Shown: one piece after another, positions 39,443-48,481 of the stretch
Layout of the letters: each line of letters begins with the position of its first letter
Position numbering within the stretch: position 1 is the stretch's first letter
From: Pelomonas aquatica
GTDB lineage: Bacteria; Pseudomonadota; Gammaproteobacteria; Burkholderiales; Burkholderiaceae_C
Direction: 5' to 3'
Length of the DNA: 64,000 nt
Assembly (NCBI RefSeq): GCF_026712205.1
Contig: NZ_JAPPUW010000009.1
Coordinates: 124,001-188,000 of the forward strand
Notes under the pieces: generated by a model
Seen by the model: only the letters and a program-made list of their open reading frames with translations
Told to the model about the DNA's origin: nothing
Database searches by the model: none
Made by a program: the position numbers and the translations under genes

Positions 39443-40354
39443 ATGGACCTTCGCCCCCATCTCGCCAGCAGCCTGCTCACCGCCACGGCGCTCGCCGCAC
39501 CGGCCCCGTCCTTCGCCTGGGGCGACGAGGGCCACGAGATCGTCGGCACCCTCGCCTACCAGCGCCTGACGCCCAAGGCCAAGAAGGCGGTCGACGCGCT
39601 GCTGGCCCAGGACAAGGATGCCCTGACCCAGCCCGACTTCGTCAGCCGCGCAACCTGGGCCGACAAATACCGCGACTCCGACCGCAACACCACCCAGGTG
39701 CGCTACAGGGCCACCCACCAGTGGCATTTCGTGGACATCGAGATCGATGGCGGCACGCTGGACCAGGCCTGCTTCGGCCGCCCGCCGCTACCCGCGGGCA
39801 CGCCGGCCAGCCAGGGCCCGGCCGATGCCTGCGTCGTCGACAAGCTGGAGCAGTTCAGGCAGGAACTCGCCGACCCCGCGACACCCACCGCCGAGAAGAC
39901 GCTGGCGCTGAAGTTCATCATGCATTTCGTCGGCGACGTGCACCAGCCGCTGCACGCCTCCGACCATCACGACAAGGGCGGCAACGCCGTCGCCGTCGAG
40001 GTCGCGCCGTCCACCCGGCAGGGCAATCTGCACGCCTACTGGGACACGCAGCTGGTCCAGAAGCTCGGCACCTCGGTGCCCACGGCGGCGGCGGCGGTCG
40101 CCAAGCTCATCACGGCGCAGAACGTCGCGCTCTGGTCGGCCGGGTCGATCGAGGACTGGGCCGGCGAATCCAACGCCAAGGCCAAGGCCATCGCCTACAA
40201 CTTCAGCGGCGAGAAGACCTTCGTCGACGACCATGGCGGCGTCGGTGAAGTGCTGGACGCCCAGTACGCCGCCCGCGCCCTGCCCGTCGCCAAGGAAGCC
40301 CTCGCCAAGGCCGGCGTGCGGCTGGCGAACCTGCTGAACGAGGCGTTCAAGTAG
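39443..40354 (+). CDS. Secreted S1/P1-type nuclease
   Basis: 303 residues with signal peptide; predicted cleavage in PSFA-WGDEGH would expose Trp1, whose backbone ligates zinc in S1/P1 nucleases. The other zinc ligands are visible in WGDEGHE, WADKYRD, HQWHFVDIE, HFVGDVHQPLHASDHHDKGGN and NLHAYWD. The enzyme should degrade single-stranded DNA or RNA and release 3' phosphate in the periplasm or outside. ATG 39443 with CGGAG upstream is chosen over 39362. Convergent with map, 14 bp apart. Confidence 0.93.
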   Translation: MDLRPHLASSLLTATALAAPAPSFAWGDEGHEIVGTLAYQRLTPKAKKAVDALLAQDKDALTQPDFVSRATWADKYRDSDRNTTQVRYRATHQWHFVDIEIDGGTLDQACFGRPPLPAGTPASQGPADACVVDKLEQFRQELADPATPTAEKTLALKFIMHFVGDVHQPLHASDHHDKGGNAVAVEVAPSTRQGNLHAYWDTQLVQKLGTSVPTAAAAVAKLITAQNVALWSAGSIEDWAGESNAKAKAIAYNFSGEKTFVDDHGGVGEVLDAQYAARALPVAKEALAKAGVRLANLLNEAFK

Positions 40355-40368
40355 GCCGCCGCCGCGGC

Positions 40369-41166
40369 TCAGTCGATGGCGGGGTAGTCGCCGAGGCCGT
40401 CGGGCCAGGGCGTCAGGATCTCGAAGCCATCCCGGGTCACCGTGACCATGTGCTCCCACTGCGCGGACAGCGAGCGGTCCTTCGTGACGACGGTCCAGCC
40501 ATCGTTCAGTTCGCGGATGGCGGCGCCGCCGGCGTTGATCATCGGCTCGATCGTGAAGATCATGCCCTGCTGCAGCTTCAGGCCCTCGCCGGGGCGCCCG
40601 AAGTGATTCACATGCGGCTCGTCGTGATAGACGTCGCCGATGCCGTGGCCGCCGTACTCCCGCACGACGCTGAAGCCGGCCGCGTGCGCGACCTTCTGGA
40701 TGGCGTGGCCCACGTCGCCCAGCGTCGCGCCCGGCCGCACCTGGCGGATGCCGGCGCGCAGCGCCTCGTAGGTCGTCGTCACGAGCCGGCGTGCCAGCAC
40801 ATTGGCCTCGCCGACGATGAACATGCGGCTGCTGTCGCCGAACCAGCCGCCCTTGGTCAGCGTCACGTCGACGTTGACGATGTCGCCCTTCTTCAGCGTC
40901 TTGTCCCGGCTCGGGATGCCATGGCAGACGACATGGTTGGGCGAGATGCAGGCCGTCTTCGGGTAGCCGTGGTAGCCGACGTTGGACGGGATGCACTTCA
41001 GCGTGTCGACGATGTAGTCGCGGCAGAGGTCGTCCAGTTCCTCCGTCGTCACGCCGGGCACGACATGCGGCTTGAGCATCGCCAGCACCTCGGCGATCAG
41101 GTGGCCGGCCTCGCGGGCCCTGGCGATCTCGTCGGGCGTGCGGATCTTGATGCTGCGGGTGTTCAT
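40369..41166 (-). CDS. map: Type I methionine aminopeptidase Map
   Basis: 265 residues. Removes N-terminal Met from new proteins. The five metal ligands are visible: Asp in VNVDVTL, Asp in GWFGDSS, His in GGHGIGDVYHDEP, Glu in FTIEPMI and Glu in QWEHMVTV. The length and motifs fit type Ia. Its ATG overlaps the thioesterase stop as ATGA, so translation of map may depend on the upstream gene. Through successive overlaps it lies in one chain with the Wadjet genes. map is normally essential; whether another copy exists cannot be seen. Confidence 0.95.
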   Translation of the reverse strand: MNTRSIKIRTPDEIARAREAGHLIAEVLAMLKPHVVPGVTTEELDDLCRDYIVDTLKCIPSNVGYHGYPKTACISPNHVVCHGIPSRDKTLKKGDIVNVDVTLTKGGWFGDSSRMFIVGEANVLARRLVTTTYEALRAGIRQVRPGATLGDVGHAIQKVAHAAGFSVVREYGGHGIGDVYHDEPHVNHFGRPGEGLKLQQGMIFTIEPMINAGGAAIRELNDGWTVVTKDRSLSAQWEHMVTVTRDGFEILTPWPDGLGDYPAID

Positions 41167-41612
41167 GGCGTATTTTCTCGGACGATGGCGGCCTCGTAGA
41201 CGGCCAGGAATTCGGGGGGCATGCGCCGCGGCTTGCCGCTGCTGATCTCGATGCAGATCAGCGTCCAGCGTCCACGCATCAGCGTGACGCCGTCGCCCGC
41301 GCGGCGCAGCTGGAAGCGCCGCTGCATCGTCAGCCGGCCGTCGCTGGCCGTCAGCCACGTGCCCAGCACCAGCGCCTCGCCCTCGAAGGACGGCAGCAGA
41401 TAGTCGTAATGCGCGTCGCGGATGGCCATCGCGCGGTCCAGGCTGCGGTAGTCGGCCAGGCCCAGGCCCAGCGCCTCGGAATGCGCCCAGCCGGCCTGCC
41501 CGCACCAGCGCACATAGACGGCGTTGTTGGTGTGGTCGAGGCCGTCGATGTCCTCGGCCGCGGGCGCCAGCGACAGCGTGAAGGGCGACGGATGGTCCCA
41601 GCCTTCGGTCAC
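41163..41612 (-). CDS. Hotdog-fold acyl-CoA thioesterase (4HBT, YbgC-like)
   Basis: 149 residues from a GTG start that overlaps the jetD stop (GTGA). The catalytic region DGLDHTNNAVYVRWCGQAGW is the D-x-x-NH-type motif of 4-hydroxybenzoyl-CoA thioesterase relatives, followed by AMAIRDAHYDYLLPSFEGEAL and RFQLRRAGDGVTLMRGRW, strands of the hotdog fold. It probably hydrolyses short- or medium-chain acyl-CoA; substrate not predictable. Its stop overlaps map. Placement between jetD and map makes it a link in the coupled six-gene chain. Confidence 0.87.
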   Translation of the reverse strand: MTEGWDHPSPFTLSLAPAAEDIDGLDHTNNAVYVRWCGQAGWAHSEALGLGLADYRSLDRAMAIRDAHYDYLLPSFEGEALVLGTWLTASDGRLTMQRRFQLRRAGDGVTLMRGRWTLICIEISSGKPRRMPPEFLAVYEAAIVRENTP

Positions 41613-42778
41613 AGCCAGCCCTCCTGCTCGGCCTTCACGCCGCGTTCGTTCAGTGCATCGCGCAGAGCGGCCAGTTCGGCGGGCAGTGCCGCCGTGGCCA
41701 GCCGGTCCAGCACGGCGCGGTCGTAGCGGCCCAGCGGCTGCAGGCCCCGGCGGTCCAGCCGCTCGGGCTCCATCGCCGTGGCGGCCCAAGGCAAGCCCGC
41801 GGCGACCCACGGCGCGGCCGCGGCCAACGCGATCTCGATGCCGGCCGGGTCGGCATCGGCGCTGATGGCCGCCGGCGCCGGCGCGAGTTGCAGCAGCCGC
41901 GTCATGCCCGCGCCCCAGCCGCGGGTCGGCCGGCCTGCGATCCAGACCAGCCCGACGCCTTGCTCGCAGCGCGCGGCCTGCTTCTCGAAGCTGGCGCGGT
42001 TCTCGATCAGCCACCAGCGCGTCGGCGGCGTGACGCGCTCCAGCGCAGCCAGCGACTCCACGGGCAGCGTGATGAAGGGCGCCACGCCCATGTCCACCCG
42101 CAGGCCGCCGGGCCAGTGCAGGCTGAGATGGCCTGCCAGCGTCAGCTCGGGCGCAAAGGCGCCTATGCCCAGTGCAGGCAGGTCGAAGTGGCGCTCCAGC
42201 CACTGCCACTCGCCCTCGCTGACGGCCTTGGTATGGCCCAGACGCAGCGCGAAATCGCGGCGCAGGCCCGCGCCGCCCTCGCCCACCCAGCCGCGCAGCG
42301 CCTCCAGCAGTGCAGCCCGCGCTTCGACGAGGCCAACGGCCATGCGCGACTCGGCCAGGCCCTGCGCGGCCTCTCCTGCCAACGCGTCGTCCATCAACGC
42401 CGCCAGCCGGTCCGCCAGCGCCTGGCGGCGGGCGTCGCGCTGGCTTTGCGTGGGCAGGCCCAGCGCGGCCTGCAAGGCTTCCAGCTCGACCCACAGCAGG
42501 CTGCTGCGCTGCCAGCGCCCGCGCTCGAAGCTCTCCTTCAGCGTGCAAAGGCCGGCGGCCAAGGCCTTGTCGGCCAGCCGGGCGGCCAGCTCGATGCGTG
42601 CGGCACCGGCCACCTCCAGCAGCGCCTGCCAGCGGCGCGTGTCGGCGCTGCCACGCAGCCAGTCGACCAGCAGCTCGCGCTCGTCCACGTCCAGCGCCGG
42701 CAGCGAGGCGGGCCAGACCGGCGCGCCCGCGGCCCGATGCCGACGCGTGCGGTCGGCGCTCAGCTCACGCGTATTCAC
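41609..42778 (-). CDS. jetD: Wadjet nuclease subunit JetD (DUF3322/DUF2220, TOPRIM)
   Basis: 389 residues from a GTG start inside the jetC 3' end (14-bp overlap). The N-terminal half is helical, DUF3322-like; the C-terminal half is the DUF2220 topoisomerase VI-like TOPRIM domain. Its catalytic acids are visible: Glu259 in WWLIENRASF and Asp308/Asp310 in ISADADPAGIEI, the E and DxD of TOPRIM. JetD cuts circular plasmid DNA after loop extrusion by JetABC (known for the family). All catalytic residues are kept, so it is likely active. MksG is the name used in the MksBEFG nomenclature. Confidence 0.9.
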   Translation of the reverse strand: MNTRELSADRTRRHRAAGAPVWPASLPALDVDERELLVDWLRGSADTRRWQALLEVAGAARIELAARLADKALAAGLCTLKESFERGRWQRSSLLWVELEALQAALGLPTQSQRDARRQALADRLAALMDDALAGEAAQGLAESRMAVGLVEARAALLEALRGWVGEGGAGLRRDFALRLGHTKAVSEGEWQWLERHFDLPALGIGAFAPELTLAGHLSLHWPGGLRVDMGVAPFITLPVESLAALERVTPPTRWWLIENRASFEKQAARCEQGVGLVWIAGRPTRGWGAGMTRLLQLAPAPAAISADADPAGIEIALAAAAPWVAAGLPWAATAMEPERLDRRGLQPLGRYDRAVLDRLATAALPAELAALRDALNERGVKAEQEGWL

Positions 42779-45581
42779 TGACTTCCGGCCTTCGCGCCAG
42801 CACGGCGATGGGCGGCGCCCAGCGTTCGCCGCGCGGCTTCTTGCTGGTCACCAGTGTGATCTCGCTGGGCTCGAAGACCTCGACGTTGTGCGTGATCGGC
42901 GTCGTCAGCATGTACTGCGCCCGCGTCGAACGCAGGAAGTGGCCGACGAGCTGGATGTTGCGCACGTCCAGGTGGGCGAAGGGCTCGTCGATGAAGACGA
43001 AGCCGCCGGGCGTCTCGTCGTCCTTCATCAGGCCGACGAGCAGGATCAGGCTCTTCAGCACCTGCTGGCCGCCCGAGGCCTCGCCGTCGTTCAGGCCCAC
43101 CTCGCCCTTGCCGTCGAAGTTGAACCTGACCTGCAGGCCGGCCTGGGCGAGCACGGTGTCGTCGTTGTCCAGATGGGGCAATTGCGCCTCGGCGACGACG
43201 CCGGCCAACTCTCCCAGTTCGGCGACGTTCTTCTTGTAGCGGCGCACGGTGGCCTTGAGCACGTCGATGTAGCGCTCGCGGGCATTGCTGGCGGCCGTGG
43301 CGGCCAGCGCATTGCTGGCGCGGCGGTCGCTGAGCTGGGCGTCCTGCTCGCGCACCTGCATCTCCATGCGGGTGTGGCGGTCGACGACGCTGGCGTCGGT
43401 TTCCCAGACGCCCTTCTCCAGCTCCTCGCCCACGTGATGGGCGCGGATCTCGGCCTGCTTGGCGTTCTCGAACTCGTTGCGCAGCGCGCTCAGCGCGATG
43501 GCCGTCACCCAGCGCGGCGGGAACTTCGCGCCGGCATCGCGCGAGGCCAGCGCCGCGGTGTGCAGCGTCCTGCGGCGGTCGCCGTGCTCGCGTGCGGTGC
43601 GGGCCTGGCGTTCCTCGCCGTCGGCCAGTTCCCGCTGCGCACGCTCGTAGTTCTGCTCGTGCACGCCGGAGGCCTTCAGCAGCCGGTCGTGCTCGGCCTC
43701 CACGGTCGTCATGCGCGTGCTGGCCTCGGCGCGCGCCTGCTTCAGCGCGGGCAGGCGCGCGCGGGCCTCGGCGAACTCGTCGGCGCGTTCGCCCAGCTCC
43801 ACGGCGGCCTTGTGGCCCTGGGCGGCGCGCTGGGCGTCCTTGAGCTGGCGGTCGACCTCGGCCTGGGCCTTGGCGACGCCGGTCAGCTCCTTGTCGATGC
43901 GGATCAGCTCGCCCTCCAGCGACGCGCGCCGCGACGCCACGGCGTTGGCACCGAACTGGTGGTCCGACGCCGGGATGGCCACGCTGCGGCCACCGCGGCC
44001 ATCGCGGTAGTAGGCGTCGGGCGTGATCCATTCGCCACCCGTGCCCGAGCCTTCCTCGGTGCTCGCCACGCAGCGGATGCCGTCGAGCTGGCGGGCCAGC
44101 CAGGTCGGCAGCGGCGCACCGACCTTCAGCGCGGCCAGCAGCGAGCCGGGCCGCGGCGGCGGCACCGGCGCCGCGTCGGAGACGACGTAGTGCCGGTACT
44201 TCTGCTTCGCGGCGATGCCGAAGGCGCGCGCCTCGTCGCTGCGCTGCCTCAGCACGATGACCCAGCGCGAGCCGCGCAGCACGCCCTCGGCCGCCGCGCG
44301 CCAGTGCTCGTCGGCGATGTCGATGCAGTCGGCCACGACATGATGGGCGATGCCGGCCTCGTCCAGCGCACGGCGCAGCGGCGCGACCTCGGGCGGCGGC
44401 GGCGGCAGGCGCCTGTCCTTGAGCTCGGCCAGCAGCCCCTGCACATGCAGCAGCTTGTCGTTCCAGCGCGTGTAGTCGCCGCGCAGCCGGTCCCGGTCGG
44501 CGGCCAGCGCCTGGGTGCGCGCGGCCAGCGCGGCGGCGTCGGCCTCGACGTCCGCCAGAGCGCGCAGCTCGTCCTCGCGCTTGACGGTCGCCTCGACGGG
44601 CTTCTCGGCGTCCCTCGCGGTGTCGAAGGCGGCGCGGGCCTCGCGCTTCTCGCCGTCCAGCGCGATCAGGCGGGCCTTGGTGGCCTCGTGCTCGGCGAAC
44701 AGCTGGTGCAGCCCGGCCCGCTTGGCCGACAGCGCCCGCGCATCGCCCGCCGCAAACAGGCGTGCCCGATGCAGGTCACGGCCCTCGCGGGCCAGCCGGT
44801 CACGGGTTTCGCTCCACTGCATGACGGGCAGCACCTCGGTGGCCAGGCGCTCGCGCTCGGCGATCTTCAGCTGCCACTGCCGATAGCTGTTGACGCGGTT
44901 GGCCAGTTCGCTCAACTGCGCCTGCGTGCGCGCCAGCTCGCCTTCGGCGGCCTGCACCTCCTTGGCCAGTTGCTGCTGGTGGGAGCGCGCCTGCTCGTAG
45001 CGGTCCAGCACCTCCTGGTCGCCGAACACCTCGAAGACCAGGCGCAGCAGTTCCTTGGCGCTCAGCTCGCACAGGCGGTCGGTCTGGCCCTGCTCCAGCG
45101 CCAGCACGCGGCCGATGGCGCGCGTGAGGCCCGCGGCCTCCAGGCGCTTGCGCCAGGCCTCGACGCCCAGCCACTCGCGCTCGCTCTTCTCGGCCAGCTG
45201 CTCGATCTCGACCGCGCCCTCGACGATCAGGTAGCGGCGCACCCAGTCGCCGCCCTGGCGCTCGATGCGGCAGGCCAGCGTGACCTGATCGGCATAGACC
45301 AGCGAGCTGGCGAAGGGCCGGCTGCTGTTCTGCCGGCTGCGCGGGCGGTTGTCCACCAGCGCGCGCAGCCAGGCCGTCTCGGCGTTGGCGTGGCGGGCAT
45401 AGGTGCGGAAGGTGCGCCCGCCCGAGCACTCCAGGCCCAGCAGCGTGCGCAGCGCATCCAGCAGCGTCGTCTTGCCCGAGCCGTTGGGCCCGGCGATGGT
45501 GATGATGTTGCCGTCCAGCGGCAGCGTGACGCGCTGGCAGTAGTCCCAGTGCAGCAGTTCAAGGGTTTGCAGGTGGAACAT
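42765..45581 (-). CDS. jetC: Wadjet SMC-like ATPase JetC (MksB/MukB family)
   Basis: 938 residues. Walker A GPNGSGKT is at 31-38; the C-terminal head has signature SGGQQVLKS near 836 and Walker B FVFIDEPFAHLD near 862, so both halves of the ABC head are intact. Long coiled coils (about 190-390 and 570-790; many AEGELARTQAQLSEL-like repeats) flank a hinge-like globular centre with HHVVADCIDIADEHW and WVIVLRQRSDEARAF. It is much shorter than E. coli MukB. As the motor of the complex it extrudes DNA loops. ATG overlaps the jetB stop by one base. Confidence 0.92.
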   Translation of the reverse strand: MFHLQTLELLHWDYCQRVTLPLDGNIITIAGPNGSGKTTLLDALRTLLGLECSGGRTFRTYARHANAETAWLRALVDNRPRSRQNSSRPFASSLVYADQVTLACRIERQGGDWVRRYLIVEGAVEIEQLAEKSEREWLGVEAWRKRLEAAGLTRAIGRVLALEQGQTDRLCELSAKELLRLVFEVFGDQEVLDRYEQARSHQQQLAKEVQAAEGELARTQAQLSELANRVNSYRQWQLKIAERERLATEVLPVMQWSETRDRLAREGRDLHRARLFAAGDARALSAKRAGLHQLFAEHEATKARLIALDGEKREARAAFDTARDAEKPVEATVKREDELRALADVEADAAALAARTQALAADRDRLRGDYTRWNDKLLHVQGLLAELKDRRLPPPPPEVAPLRRALDEAGIAHHVVADCIDIADEHWRAAAEGVLRGSRWVIVLRQRSDEARAFGIAAKQKYRHYVVSDAAPVPPPRPGSLLAALKVGAPLPTWLARQLDGIRCVASTEEGSGTGGEWITPDAYYRDGRGGRSVAIPASDHQFGANAVASRRASLEGELIRIDKELTGVAKAQAEVDRQLKDAQRAAQGHKAAVELGERADEFAEARARLPALKQARAEASTRMTTVEAEHDRLLKASGVHEQNYERAQRELADGEERQARTAREHGDRRRTLHTAALASRDAGAKFPPRWVTAIALSALRNEFENAKQAEIRAHHVGEELEKGVWETDASVVDRHTRMEMQVREQDAQLSDRRASNALAATAASNARERYIDVLKATVRRYKKNVAELGELAGVVAEAQLPHLDNDDTVLAQAGLQVRFNFDGKGEVGLNDGEASGGQQVLKSLILLVGLMKDDETPGGFVFIDEPFAHLDVRNIQLVGHFLRSTRAQYMLTTPITHNVEVFEPSEITLVTSKKPRGERWAPPIAVLARRPEVSEYA

Positions 45582-46294
45582 CAGTCCTCGCTCGTCTCTT
45601 CGGCGTCTTGCTCGGTGCGGGCGGCCTGGATGGCGGCCAGCGCGGGCGCGGCGGTGGCGTCGGTCGCGCGGGCCAGCACGTCGGCCAGCGCGCCGTCGAG
45701 GATGCGCGGCGCGAGCTGGTCGTAGTCCAGCAGCAGGTCCAGCAGCGGGCCTTCGGCGATGTCTTCGCCACGGCGGGTGATGAAGCCGTGGTTCTCCAGC
45801 CGCCTGAGGTTGGTGTCCAGGCGGGTCTTCTTGCCGAGCTGGTCGCCGAAGTCGGCCAGCAGGCTGCGATAGCTGAGCACCGGCGACACGTTGGCGCCGG
45901 CCGGCAGCGGCTTGTCGGCGGCGAACATCTCGCCCTGCTGCTCGCCTGCGGCGTCCGCGCGGTTGAGCTGGCGCTGGCGCTTGGGCAGCACGATGAGGCT
46001 CCACAGCACCACCAGCAGCGACACGCCATCGCGCGGCAGCTCCAGGTTGTTGTTGGCCGACAGCCCCGACTCGCCGAACACGGCGCTCTCGGCCGGCCGC
46101 AGCAGCGCGACGCTGACATGCTCGGCATAGACGTTGTCCACCAGCTTCAGGCCCACGCCGGCCAGCCGGGCCGTGACGGCGGCCCACAGGTCCGCGTCGA
46201 TCAACGCCCGCTTGACCAGGGGATGGGTGCGGGGCAGCCAGCGGCGCGCCAGCAACTGGGCCGCGAGGCTCGCGGCATCGTCGAGTGCATTCAT
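45581..46294 (-). CDS. jetB: Wadjet subunit JetB (DUF4194, MukE/MksE-like)
   Basis: 237 residues, no membrane segment. The central region with YAEHVSVALLRPAESAVFGE, LELPRDGVSLLVVLWSLIVLPKRQ and KKTRLDTNLRRLENHGFITRR matches DUF4194, tandem winged helices that act as the KITE subunit beside the kleisin JetA. The C-terminal 40 residues are acidic and Ala-rich. Start ATG overlaps the jetA stop by 4 bp; stop shares a base with the jetC ATG. Assignment rests on family pattern plus its place between jetA and jetC. Confidence 0.87.
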   Translation of the reverse strand: MNALDDAASLAAQLLARRWLPRTHPLVKRALIDADLWAAVTARLAGVGLKLVDNVYAEHVSVALLRPAESAVFGESGLSANNNLELPRDGVSLLVVLWSLIVLPKRQRQLNRADAAGEQQGEMFAADKPLPAGANVSPVLSYRSLLADFGDQLGKKTRLDTNLRRLENHGFITRRGEDIAEGPLLDLLLDYDQLAPRILDGALADVLARATDATAAPALAAIQAARTEQDAEETSED

Positions 46295-47589
46295 TCGGAT
46301 TCGCTCAGGAGGTCGCCGCGGCTCATCCAGGCCACGAAGCGGTCATCGATTTCGCCCTGCTCGGCGCTCCAGCGCACCCGCCAGGGCTGGCGGGCCATGT
46401 CGCCGGTGGCGCCCTTGAGATGGCGGGCCTGCGGGTCGCCCAGCAGCGGCAGCAACTGCGCACGATAGGCGGCGGCGGCGTAGCTGCCGCCCAGCACGGC
46501 GGGTCCGACGGGCTGGGTACCCAGGCCCTGGGCCGTCCAGCCGTCCAGCAGCGCCTGCAGCGCGCCCAGCTCGGGCGGCAGGCTCAGCACCTCCAGGCGG
46601 CCGTCGGGCGCGGCCTGGGGGTTGGGCAGACCGACGGCATCGGCGGGCCTGGGGCGGTCGCGCTCGAACTCGGCCTCGGCACCGTCCACCAGCTCCTGCG
46701 CGGCCACCATCACGGGCTGCACGGCGGTGGACAGCACCTCGCCCAGCAGCAGGTCGAGCCGGGGCATGCGCTGCAGCCACTGGCGCAGGTCGGTGGTCGT
46801 CACGCCGGTGGAGCCCAGCGTCACGCGCTGGCGGTCGGCCTGCTGCAGCGCGCGGTTGAACTGGCTGGCCATGACCAGCAGGCTGGCCTGGGCGCTGGCG
46901 AGGTCGCGCGCCAGCCGCTCCAGCCGCGCGTGGCCGCTGGCCTGGGCCTGCTCGATGATGGCCTTGACGGCGTCGCTGGCGCGGTCCACCAGGGCCATGG
47001 CGCGCTCGAAGCGGGCATTGGCACGGCGCAGCTCGAACTCGCTGCCGCTGGCCATCGCGTCGGCGAACTCCTCGCGCAGCCGCGCGAGCTGGGCCTGCAG
47101 CATGTTCAGCTGCTGCGGCTCCAACAGGCCCAGTTGATGGGCACCGGCGACGCCGGCCAGCAGCGCGGCCAGGTCGTCGTCGGGGCCAGCGGCATCGGCC
47201 GTGAGCGGCTGCAGCATGCCGACGACCGACTGCGCCAGCGGCGCGATGGCATAGGTCTGCGTGGAGGCGTCCCAGTGCAGCAGGCCGGCGTCGCGCAGAC
47301 GCTTGAGCACCGTCTCCAGCGCGTCGTCGCGGACATGGTGGAAATGGCGGTTCAGCTCGTCGCGGGCCAGCCGCGCGGCCGGCAGCGCCATCAGCTCCAG
47401 GAACACCCACACGCGCAGCCGCACCCAGGCGGCCTCGCCGCCGAACAGCGCGCGCTGCGCGGCCAGCAGGGCCTCGTGGCGCTCCAGCTGCCACCACAGC
47501 AGCGAGTCCACCGGCGCGCCGCCGTCGCGGAAGAACTCGTCGGGCGAGCGCGAGTCGTCGAGGGCGGAGGTGGGACGAAGGTCGGACAT
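46291..47589 (-). CDS. jetA: Wadjet kleisin subunit JetA (DUF3375, MukF/MksF-like)
   Basis: 432 residues. An N-terminal winged-helix region (LLWWQLERHEALLAAQRALFGG; RLRDAGLLHWDASTQTYAIAP) leads into a long helical middle (about 150-290) with ARFERAMALVDRASDAVKAI, then a C-terminal domain that would contact the JetC head. This is the architecture of the DUF3375/MukF-like kleisin. ATG at 47589 is chosen because the upstream extension to 47742 lacks family similarity and runs over the start region of the divergent gene at 47690. It is the first gene of the system. A -10-like GATAAT lies about 18 bp before it; no good -35 was seen. Confidence 0.86.
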   Translation of the reverse strand: MSDLRPTSALDDSRSPDEFFRDGGAPVDSLLWWQLERHEALLAAQRALFGGEAAWVRLRVWVFLELMALPAARLARDELNRHFHHVRDDALETVLKRLRDAGLLHWDASTQTYAIAPLAQSVVGMLQPLTADAAGPDDDLAALLAGVAGAHQLGLLEPQQLNMLQAQLARLREEFADAMASGSEFELRRANARFERAMALVDRASDAVKAIIEQAQASGHARLERLARDLASAQASLLVMASQFNRALQQADRQRVTLGSTGVTTTDLRQWLQRMPRLDLLLGEVLSTAVQPVMVAAQELVDGAEAEFERDRPRPADAVGLPNPQAAPDGRLEVLSLPPELGALQALLDGWTAQGLGTQPVGPAVLGGSYAAAAYRAQLLPLLGDPQARHLKGATGDMARQPWRVRWSAEQGEIDDRFVAWMSRGDLLSESE

Positions 47590-47689
47590 GGGGCGCGGAT
47601 TATCGTCGGCGTCATTCAGGCGCTTTGAGTGCTGCCGGCGGCCGGCTTGAACCCCGGGAGCGCGACGCTGGCCTAATCTGGAGCCCATC

Positions 47690-48481
47690 ATGAGACAGCC
47701 CACCTTCTTTCTCTCCCACGGCGGCGGCCCCTGGCCCTTCATGGACGGCGACTACCGCCAGGCCCACGCGAAGCTGGAAGCCTCGCTGCAGGCCCTGCCG
47801 GCCACGCTGCCCGAGCGGCCGAAGGCGATCCTGATGATCTCGGCCCACTGGGAGGAGCCCGCCTTCACGGTGATGACCTCGCCCGCGCCGGGCATGCTCT
47901 ACGACTACGGCGGCTTCCCGCCCCACACCTACGAGGTGGTCTACCCGGCCCCGGGCGACCCGGCGCTGGCCGAGCGCGTCGCCGGCCTGATCGAGGCCGC
48001 CGGCCTGCCGGCCGCGCGCAACGCCCAGCGCGGCTTCGACCACGGCGCCTTCTGCACGCTGGTGCCGATGTATCCGGACGCCGGCGTGCCGGTCGTGCAG
48101 CTGTCGCTGAAGCGCGGCCTGGACCCGGCCGAGCACCTGGCCCTGGGCCGGGCGCTGAGCCCCCTACGCGACGAGGGCGTGCTGATCCTGGGCAGCGGCT
48201 TCAGCTTCCACAACCTGCGGCTCTACAACGAGGCCGGGCGTGCGCCTTCGGCCCAGTTCGACGCCTGGCTGCAGGCCGCCCTGCCCTCGGTCGACGGCCG
48301 CGCCGAGCGCCTGCAGGCCTGGGCCGAGGCGCCCGCGGCACGCCTTGCCCACCCGCGCGAGGAGCATCTGCTGCCGCTGATGGTCGCCGCCGGCGCGGCC
48401 GAAGGCGATGCCGCAAGCTGCAGCTACCGTGAGACGGATTTCCTGGGCGGCGTGACGGCTTCGAGCTTCCGCTTCGGCTGA
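47690..48481 (+). CDS. ygiD: DODA-type class III extradiol dioxygenase (YgiD-like)
   Basis: 263 residues. The metal ligands of the LigB/DODA superfamily are visible: FFLSHGGGPWPFMDG, MISAHWEEP, RGFDHGAFC and GSGFSFHNLR. E. coli YgiD opens L-DOPA at the 4,5 bond, and plant homologues make betalamic acid; a natural bacterial substrate is not known. Length and motif order match the family throughout. Divergent from jetA with a 100-bp gap. The ATG has TCTGGAG upstream. Confidence 0.9.
   Translation: MRQPTFFLSHGGGPWPFMDGDYRQAHAKLEASLQALPATLPERPKAILMISAHWEEPAFTVMTSPAPGMLYDYGGFPPHTYEVVYPAPGDPALAERVAGLIEAAGLPAARNAQRGFDHGAFCTLVPMYPDAGVPVVQLSLKRGLDPAEHLALGRALSPLRDEGVLILGSGFSFHNLRLYNEAGRAPSAQFDAWLQAALPSVDGRAERLQAWAEAPAARLAHPREEHLLPLMVAAGAAEGDAASCSYRETDFLGGVTASSFRFG

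Follow-up and report, generated by a model that had tools for sequence, protein, structure and literature searches.

What does a Wadjet-type system do in a chromosome where its genes overlap those of a thioesterase and a methionine aminopeptidase? The question is raised by an operon of Pelomonas aquatica, found in a window of 64,000 nucleotides (the whole stretch analysed; positions 124,001 to 188,000 of contig NZ_JAPPUW010000009.1, assembly GCF_026712205.1) that is part of a 5.12 Mb draft genome. The operon lies on the minus strand, from 47589 to 40369, and comprises six genes in the order jetA-jetB-jetC-jetD-thioesterase-map, with successive overlaps of 4, 1, 14, 4 (GTGA) and 4 (ATGA) bp. 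These genes and overlaps had been described in an initial annotation and are confirmed by open reading frame (ORF) analysis and by a simple codon-usage gene caller, which picked the six genes as a single unbroken run. The same annotation regarded the coupling to a normally essential housekeeping gene, map, as the unusual feature, and asked if the system was a resident chromosomal factor or was stabilised by this coupling. Our results place the weight elsewhere: the link to map looks ordinary, and the useful finding is the probable repeated loss of the nuclease JetD from a conserved Wadjet-type motor. With a probability of roughly two in three, we consider the locus to be a resident, largely vertically inherited JetABCD/MksFEBG system of Burkholderiales, in which JetABC would act as a second condensin of the MksBEF type and the anti-plasmid nuclease JetD would be dispensable and lost many times.

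The presence of jetD was scored in two sets of loci. An alignment scan of JetC in named genomes gave 163 relatives, of which the best 80 were kept; adding the window and 18 further loci gives a first set of 99 distinct JetCs. The second set consists of 43 JetCs from 45 loci of a search across the order, the two others being cut. No JetC is common to both sets, and five pairs within sets are at least 99% identical. We searched for JetD by gene calling and tblastn up to 3 kb downstream of jetC in the first set, and within the fetched locus in the second. Of the 139 scorable loci of the order, 31 have jetD, two of these copies being truncated at contig ends; another 2 have a decayed copy, and in the other 106 we found none. 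The window belongs to the minority that has the nuclease. More precisely, the 97 scored loci of the first set include 23 with jetD (one of them, L125, cut by a contig end), one pseudogene (L056), and 73 where it was not found, the two unscorable loci having less than 700 bp of flank or no jetC end. The 42 scored loci of the second set include 8 with jetD (L204 is contig-cut), one remnant (L195), and 33 where it was not found. Gene calling missed jetD in L161 and L189, as well as jetA in L189, and these were recovered by tblastn.

Wherever jetD is present, it directly follows jetC. Two copies are decayed: in L056, fragments of jetD remain, with deletions, a changed frame and a stop codon, beside an intact jetABC, and the neighbouring genes of its group match those of the jetD-containing locus L058; in L195, the remnant covers only residues 1-52. 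A search of 44 whole genomes identified JetD in 12 of them, always at the jet locus, and fragments in one more (G010). Within the genus sample of 20 genomes, 9 encode JetD. Three Roseateles genomes have weak TOPRIM-like matches that were not counted as JetD (G000:C53:150712-151077, G159:C147:10639-11004 and G153:C12:84266-84631); this frame of 214 aa, matching positions 262-373 of the JetD profile with an E-value of about 1e-6, is perhaps another small TOPRIM protein. In a further genome (G167, 83% complete), locus L113 has a jetC end whose product is 87% identical to that of the window, then no jetD, and none was found in the rest of the genome; it is possibly a further loss inside the JetD-containing clade and was left uncounted.

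How many times did the state of jetD change, and in which direction? On the tree of the 99 JetCs, the states require a minimum of 10 changes, all 10 forced by starred branches. On a FastTree phylogeny of 142 rows the minimum is 15, and 23 losses are needed if JetD is taken as ancestral and never regained under a midpoint root. The trees of JetD and JetC for the same 21 taxa have 12 of 18 splits in common (500 label shuffles gave a mean of 0.2 and a maximum of 3), with a path-length correlation of 0.92, and the JetC tree is not rejected, if narrowly, by the JetD data (approximately unbiased, AU, test, p 0.072). A close pair illustrates the event itself. Roseateles toxinivorans (L142), which has jetD, and a metagenome-assembled genome (MAG) without it (L146) are 94.6% identical over 202 bp on one side of the variable segment and 95.0% identical over 1880 bp on the other, and between these conserved sides they differ cleanly, with 1223 bp in the former and 22 bp in the latter. 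The large agreement between the JetD and JetC trees, the clean deletion in this pair and the decayed copy of L056 together favour repeated loss of jetD over gain.

The opposite history, in which a resident MksBEF without nuclease captured jetD several times by horizontal transfer, has its own arguments. JetD is the minority state (31/139) and its distribution is patchy; unordered parsimony cannot separate gains from losses; the AU test comes close to rejection; and Weiss et al. 2023 (PMC10123090) interpret the scattered presence of MksG as probably due to horizontal transfer. We nevertheless find this history rather unlikely, given the congruence of the two trees, the invariable position of jetD directly after jetC, and the two decayed copies and one clean deletion, which point to loss. 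Transfer of MksG may be the right reading in other groups; here, a simpler one exists.

If the nuclease is so often missing, are the loci that lack it still functional? JetC has intact Walker A, signature and Walker B motifs in all 73 loci of the first set where jetD was not found. All 73 have JetB and 71 have a full-size JetA, the other two being loci cut short. We estimated the ratio of nonsynonymous to synonymous substitution rates (dN/dS) pairwise with YN00 in 47 of the 99 rows, i.e., in five chosen clades of 8-10, IQ-TREE codon models having yielded no omega. Only pairs with dS within 0.02-3 were retained, which removed 1 to 22 of the 28-45 pairs per set for jetA, jetB and jetC, and none of 28 for jetD; for map and the thioesterase this filter dropped most or all pairs, and their values were not interpreted. 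The median dN/dS of jetA, jetB and jetC is 0.02-0.05 in the JetD-less sister clade of the genus, 0.02-0.04 in the JetD-less Mitsuaria group, and 0.06-0.10 in the JetD-less Paucibacter and Aquabacterium groups. In the JetD-containing Roseateles clade it is 0.03-0.05, with 0.16 for jetD itself. These values suggest strong purifying selection on the motor genes with and without the nuclease.

The loci with only JetABC might instead be the decaying remains of a defence system, as the two loci with a decayed jetD and the dN/dS of up to 0.10 in two of the JetD-less clades could be taken to indicate. This is largely contradicted by the intact ATPase motifs, by ratios far below 1 that are as low in the sister clade as in JetD-containing relatives, and by the large species groups of the JetC tree that lack JetD throughout, so that we regard such decay as extremely improbable. 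A replacement effector, another candidate that we considered, was rejected for the first position after jetC: the first genes of 108 JetD-less loci (the two decayed ones included) fall into 62 clusters, without a common substitute, and the largest cluster, with 9 members, is the thioesterase. Separately, a conserved gene of about 230 aa, which we take to be a WYL/YafY-type regulator, follows jetC in seven JetD-less loci, several of them from Paucibacter (L048, L133, L136, L137, L139, L140 and L143).

The taxonomic distribution of the system is that of a resident factor. All 20 genomes sampled from the genus have JetC, and in two of these it is truncated by a contig end. In 14 of the 20 it is identical to that of a named record, and the genus, where named, is Roseateles or Pelomonas, except in a MAG contig that bears the name Methylotenera. 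The JetCs nearest to that of the window, among the best 80 of the 163 relatives, are 92% identical and occur in Roseateles saccharophilus and Pelomonas sp. Root1217. Full-length JetC was identified in 26 of 150 genomes drawn evenly from the family, with 8 more having short or weak matches that were not counted. For JetB, the order sample of 300 genomes has relatives in 46, and the class sample of 274 has them in a single genome, that of the window. Related jet loci have neighbouring genes in common. In some other families, the jet locus lies beside genes that we take to be obgE, proB and an rRNA methyltransferase, a setting that fits a resident locus. The initial annotation's suggestion of a resident chromosomal factor is thus supported by the presence of JetC throughout the genus sample, the shared neighbours and the conservation of JetABC; the significance it gave to the coupling with map is not. 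We also noted a contig (L120) of a MAG labelled Methylotenera sp. that has a jet locus of the Roseateles type and is probably mis-binned.

What, then, would the motor do? JetA (kleisin), JetB (KITE) and JetC (SMC ATPase) would form a conserved DNA motor with which the TOPRIM nuclease JetD works when present. In the published Wadjet model, as given in the available part of a review (PMC10586767), JetABC is a sensor that extrudes circular DNA and JetD is the nuclease. This mechanism most likely applies to the species of the window, by analogy: JetABC would extrude DNA, a small circle would be extruded wholly, and JetD would then cut it, so that we expect plasmid cleavage from this JetABCD. Stalling is a further detail of the Wadjet model. 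That most sampled relatives lack the nuclease and have an intact motor suggests a second job for the latter. ScpA is present in all 44 genomes with JetC that were tested, which would make JetABC a second condensin-like complex beside Smc-ScpAB. From its conservation we infer a role on the chromosome: the JetD-independent task would be chromosome organisation or segregation, most likely as a second condensin like MksBEF of P. aeruginosa. The motor would then serve two purposes, and defence would be the optional one.

Another reading of the same conservation is that JetABC without JetD controls plasmids and is not a chromosomal condensin, acting either by itself, through compaction or a block to replication or segregation, or together with a nuclease from a different family. 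The plasmid replication family Rep_3 (PF01051) was rarer among the genomes with JetC: it was found in 1 of the 44 genomes with JetC, a JetD-less one, compared with 12 of 80 family genomes (from 124) without full-length JetC (Fisher p 0.03). This association is a weak hint and a lead only, since the p value is 0.18 when the 26 JetC genomes of the evenly drawn family set are used (1/26). The related genomes are non-independent (20 of the 44 belong to one genus), a single replicon family is covered, and draft genomes lose plasmids. In addition, the first position after jetC holds no common second effector, and MksBEF of P. aeruginosa acts on the chromosome, according to the accessible text of PMC7485682. 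We consider plasmid control by the motor in place of a chromosomal role unlikely. A mixed scheme is slightly less probable still: JetABC alone would control extrachromosomal DNA without cutting, for example by extruding and compacting small circles such that they fail to replicate or partition, while also serving the chromosome, and the nuclease would be an optional, costly addition that lineages discard. If that were true, one machine would move repeatedly between defence and chromosome maintenance.

Several points weigh against a resident second condensin that repeatedly lost its nuclease. The AU p value is near rejection and 6 of the 18 splits differ between the two trees, four of them inside the genus, so that jetD may have undergone some recombination or transfer. 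The JetD tree excludes two of the 23 JetDs of the first set (L166 and L193), which did not pass a motif filter, and L125 is truncated. The dN/dS of the Paucibacter and Aquabacterium groups exceeds that of the JetD-containing clade, and selection may be somewhat looser there. Among the 73 loci of the first set without JetD, 7 have less than 3 kb of flank, the shortest 776 bp; for most genomes, the whole-genome search scored some but not all of the initial candidates (e.g., 42 of 67); and the JetD searches would miss a nuclease of another family encoded elsewhere. Finally, MksB of C. glutamicum, a species with MksG, showed no chromosome role in the part of PMC7083940 available to us.

We now return to the genes downstream of the motor. 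The map gene (40369..41166, minus strand, 265 aa) passes the TIGR00500 model with 296.7 bits for a cut-off of 171.35, and the thioesterase-like gene (41163..41612, minus strand, 149 aa) passes 4HBT_2 (PF13279), so that by family models both identities are unambiguous. The thioesterase is a neighbour that stands outside the SMC system. The idea of an essential housekeeping map in the operon did not hold. The genome of the window has another type I map on a different contig (G000:C34:67922-68677), 61% identical to the operonic one and adjoining a gene that we take to be glnD. Such a second copy, 60-62% identical to the operonic map, is present in all 20 genomes of the genus sample; both copies occur in 19 of them, the exception being G167, the genome that is 83% complete. 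The operonic map is an accessory copy, and because of the other type I map in every sampled genome of the genus the linkage looks ordinary.

The neighbourhood itself is not a peculiarity of one strain, since it is kept across the genus. We compared the genus loci L096-L131, leaving out L125 and L113 at contig ends and counting L112, where just the end of jetC is present. In 17 of the 18 scorable loci (not L116), with and without jetD, the thioesterase comes after jetC or jetD, and in 17 of 18 map lies downstream of jet; in the remaining one (L107, genome G162) map is on another contig than jet. A gene of the ParD-like antitoxin family (PF11903) precedes map in 15 of the 17 loci with map, mostly with an overlap of 4 bp. 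The direct overlap between thioesterase and map was found in 2 of the 18 loci, the window and L131, which both lack the ParD-like gene and are not sisters on the JetC tree. Other genes lie between jet and map in L119, L123 and L127. In loci outside the genus, the genes displayed downstream of jetC (up to five per locus) included none labelled as a thioesterase or map like those of the window. Hence, the jet-thioesterase-map neighbourhood appears to be old in the genus, and it is not tied to jetD, to the direct overlap or to an essential map. One could still argue that translational coupling to a housekeeping map makes the defence system more stable, or that it marks a functional connection, as the gene order is kept across the genus in lines with and without JetD alike. 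We find this very improbable in view of the second map in all 20 genomes, the rarity of the direct overlap, the loci with intervening genes, without thioesterase or without map near jet, and the lack of a similar link among the downstream genes displayed for loci outside the genus. The coupling was thus rejected as the main point of this locus. The thioesterase and map are probably downstream neighbours of unrelated function that joined the transcription unit in the genus, and the genes of the operon are presumably cotranscribed.

The four upstream genes are adjacent in the order A-B-C-D and would encode a kleisin, a KITE protein, an SMC ATPase and a TOPRIM nuclease. Family-model searches used mechanical ORFs, some of which begin upstream of the gene start. 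The product of jetC/mksB (42765..45581, minus strand, 938 aa) passes SMC_N (PF02463; 55.4 bits, cut-off 40); its best PADLOC match is a mad3 model (E-value 1.7e-22), followed by JetC1 (1.6e-21). In line with the initial annotation, it has intact ATPase motifs, namely GPNGSGKT (Walker A), SGGQQ (signature) and FIDEP (Walker B), and the TOPRIM residues E259, D308 and D310 are present in JetD, without exception in alignments of 13 and 15 JetD proteins. JetD, the optional subunit (jetD/mksG, 41609..42778, minus strand, 389 aa), matches JetD1 of PADLOC with an E-value of 4.9e-10. JetB (jetB/mksE, 45581..46294, minus strand, 237 aa), named from its position between jetA and jetC, matches DUF4194 under the curated cut-off (E-value 4.8e-4), and JetA (jetA/mksF, 46291..47589, minus strand, 432 aa) has no match in Pfam, NCBIfam or PADLOC. 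When profiles were compared with PDB sequences, those of JetA, JetB and JetD matched no JetABCD chain, and that of JetC matched mainly the ATPase regions of SMC-type chains, among them JetC 8dk1_C. Judging by the weak or missing matches to family models, the subunits have diverged far from the Wadjet proteins used as references.

Structure models help for JetD. Its model (predicted local distance difference test score, pLDDT, of 90) supports the fold assignment, with a CAP-type N-terminal domain and a TOPRIM domain of the topoisomerase VI-A kind that includes the E and DxD residues. The top-ranked structure is topoisomerase VI-A 1d3y_B (Z 17.5, 237 residues), an enzyme already known to share this fold. 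With VIA-align, the model aligns with MksG of C. glutamicum (8b7f_A; Z 13.6, 305 residues, root mean square deviation, rmsd, 14.1, model residues 33-388) and JetD of P. aeruginosa (7til_B; Z 11.5, 306 residues, rmsd 14.4, residues 35-387), and the rows below rank 10 begin at Z 7.7. The Foldseek top 50 contained no JetD or MksG entry, but a second look with VIA-align 2 did show such entries. The AlphaFold model of JetA is weak (pLDDT 69, predicted TM-score 0.34): its sole Foldseek match at an E-value of at most 0.001 is MukF of 9gm7_C (6.7e-4, TM-score 0.19), and JetABCD of E. coli (8q72_E) comes at 0.036, all with TM-scores under 0.2. JetA may therefore be a kleisin of the MukF/JetA type, of which we are unsure as the model indicates the fold only weakly; for the kleisin and KITE labels, gene position and weak matches are the main grounds. 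A review names, in its available part, an 'IFDR' motif at the N-terminus of JetB for contact with JetD (PMC10586767), which we did not see in our alignment. The N-terminus of JetB conserves instead LARRWLPR, or a close variant, in rows with and without JetD, with the exception of five JetD-less rows whose start was called short.

On its two sides the operon has a convergent S1/P1 nuclease gene (39443-40354) and a divergent gene for a LigB-type dioxygenase (47690-48481), neither of which looks mobile or defence-related. The 100-bp gap to the latter (47590..47689) is likely the promoter region of the jet operon because it is the only intergenic space upstream. We found no sigma-70 consensus promoter or terminator in 40000-47900, in a kind of scan that proves little. 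The GC content at third codon positions of the six genes (0.90-0.95) lies within the range of the surroundings (0.930 +/- 0.026 for the 24 genes of 33-57 kb, the six included), in agreement with the lack of a composition break noted earlier. In other loci, gaps or extra called genes occur between jetB and jetC (L131, with 610 bp, L058, L060, L163, L171, L216, L224, L228 and L229) or between jetA and jetB (L203, L218, L222, L234 and L236), and for this reason the jet operon seems to tolerate insertions at these two junctions.

How does the system compare with known ones? It resembles the type I Wadjet systems JetABCD/MksBEFG of E. coli GF4-3, P. aeruginosa PA14 and C. glutamicum in its four genes, their order, the intact SMC motifs, and a JetD model that aligns near full length with the solved MksG and JetD structures, if at an rmsd of about 14. 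EptABCD of M. smegmatis is a further Wadjet type I system. Type I appears to be the nearest sub-type, and we assigned none. As points of difference, JetA has no family-model match, the profiles of JetA, JetB and JetD match no JetABCD chain of the PDB, and this clade retains jetABC but treats jetD as optional. The JetD-less relatives have a kleisin-KITE-SMC operon without MksG alongside Smc-ScpAB, like MksBEF of P. aeruginosa, from which the window differs by keeping JetD. The likeness to MukBEF of E. coli is limited to the weak match of JetA to MukF, and unlike MukBEF the complex would not be the sole condensin, given the presence of ScpA. The available text of the review (PMC10586767) suggests that MksBEF of P. 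aeruginosa stems from the loss of JetD, and describes work of the Wadjet motor on the host chromosome as undocumented and the descent of MksBEF and MukBEF from defence systems as unresolved. That is one inferred case; this order offers many state changes, besides two copies in decay and one pair of near neighbours that differ by a clean deletion. Among the matches listed in our literature search, there was no published report of repeated JetD loss or of the jet loci of this clade.

These results suggest that a patchy distribution of MksG can arise without horizontal transfer, and that annotation by JetC alone would label as 'Wadjet' many complexes that are free of the nuclease. Considering that close relatives differ in jetD and have an intact motor on both sides, the question of whether a Wadjet motor also works on the chromosome becomes testable in this clade by simple gene removals.

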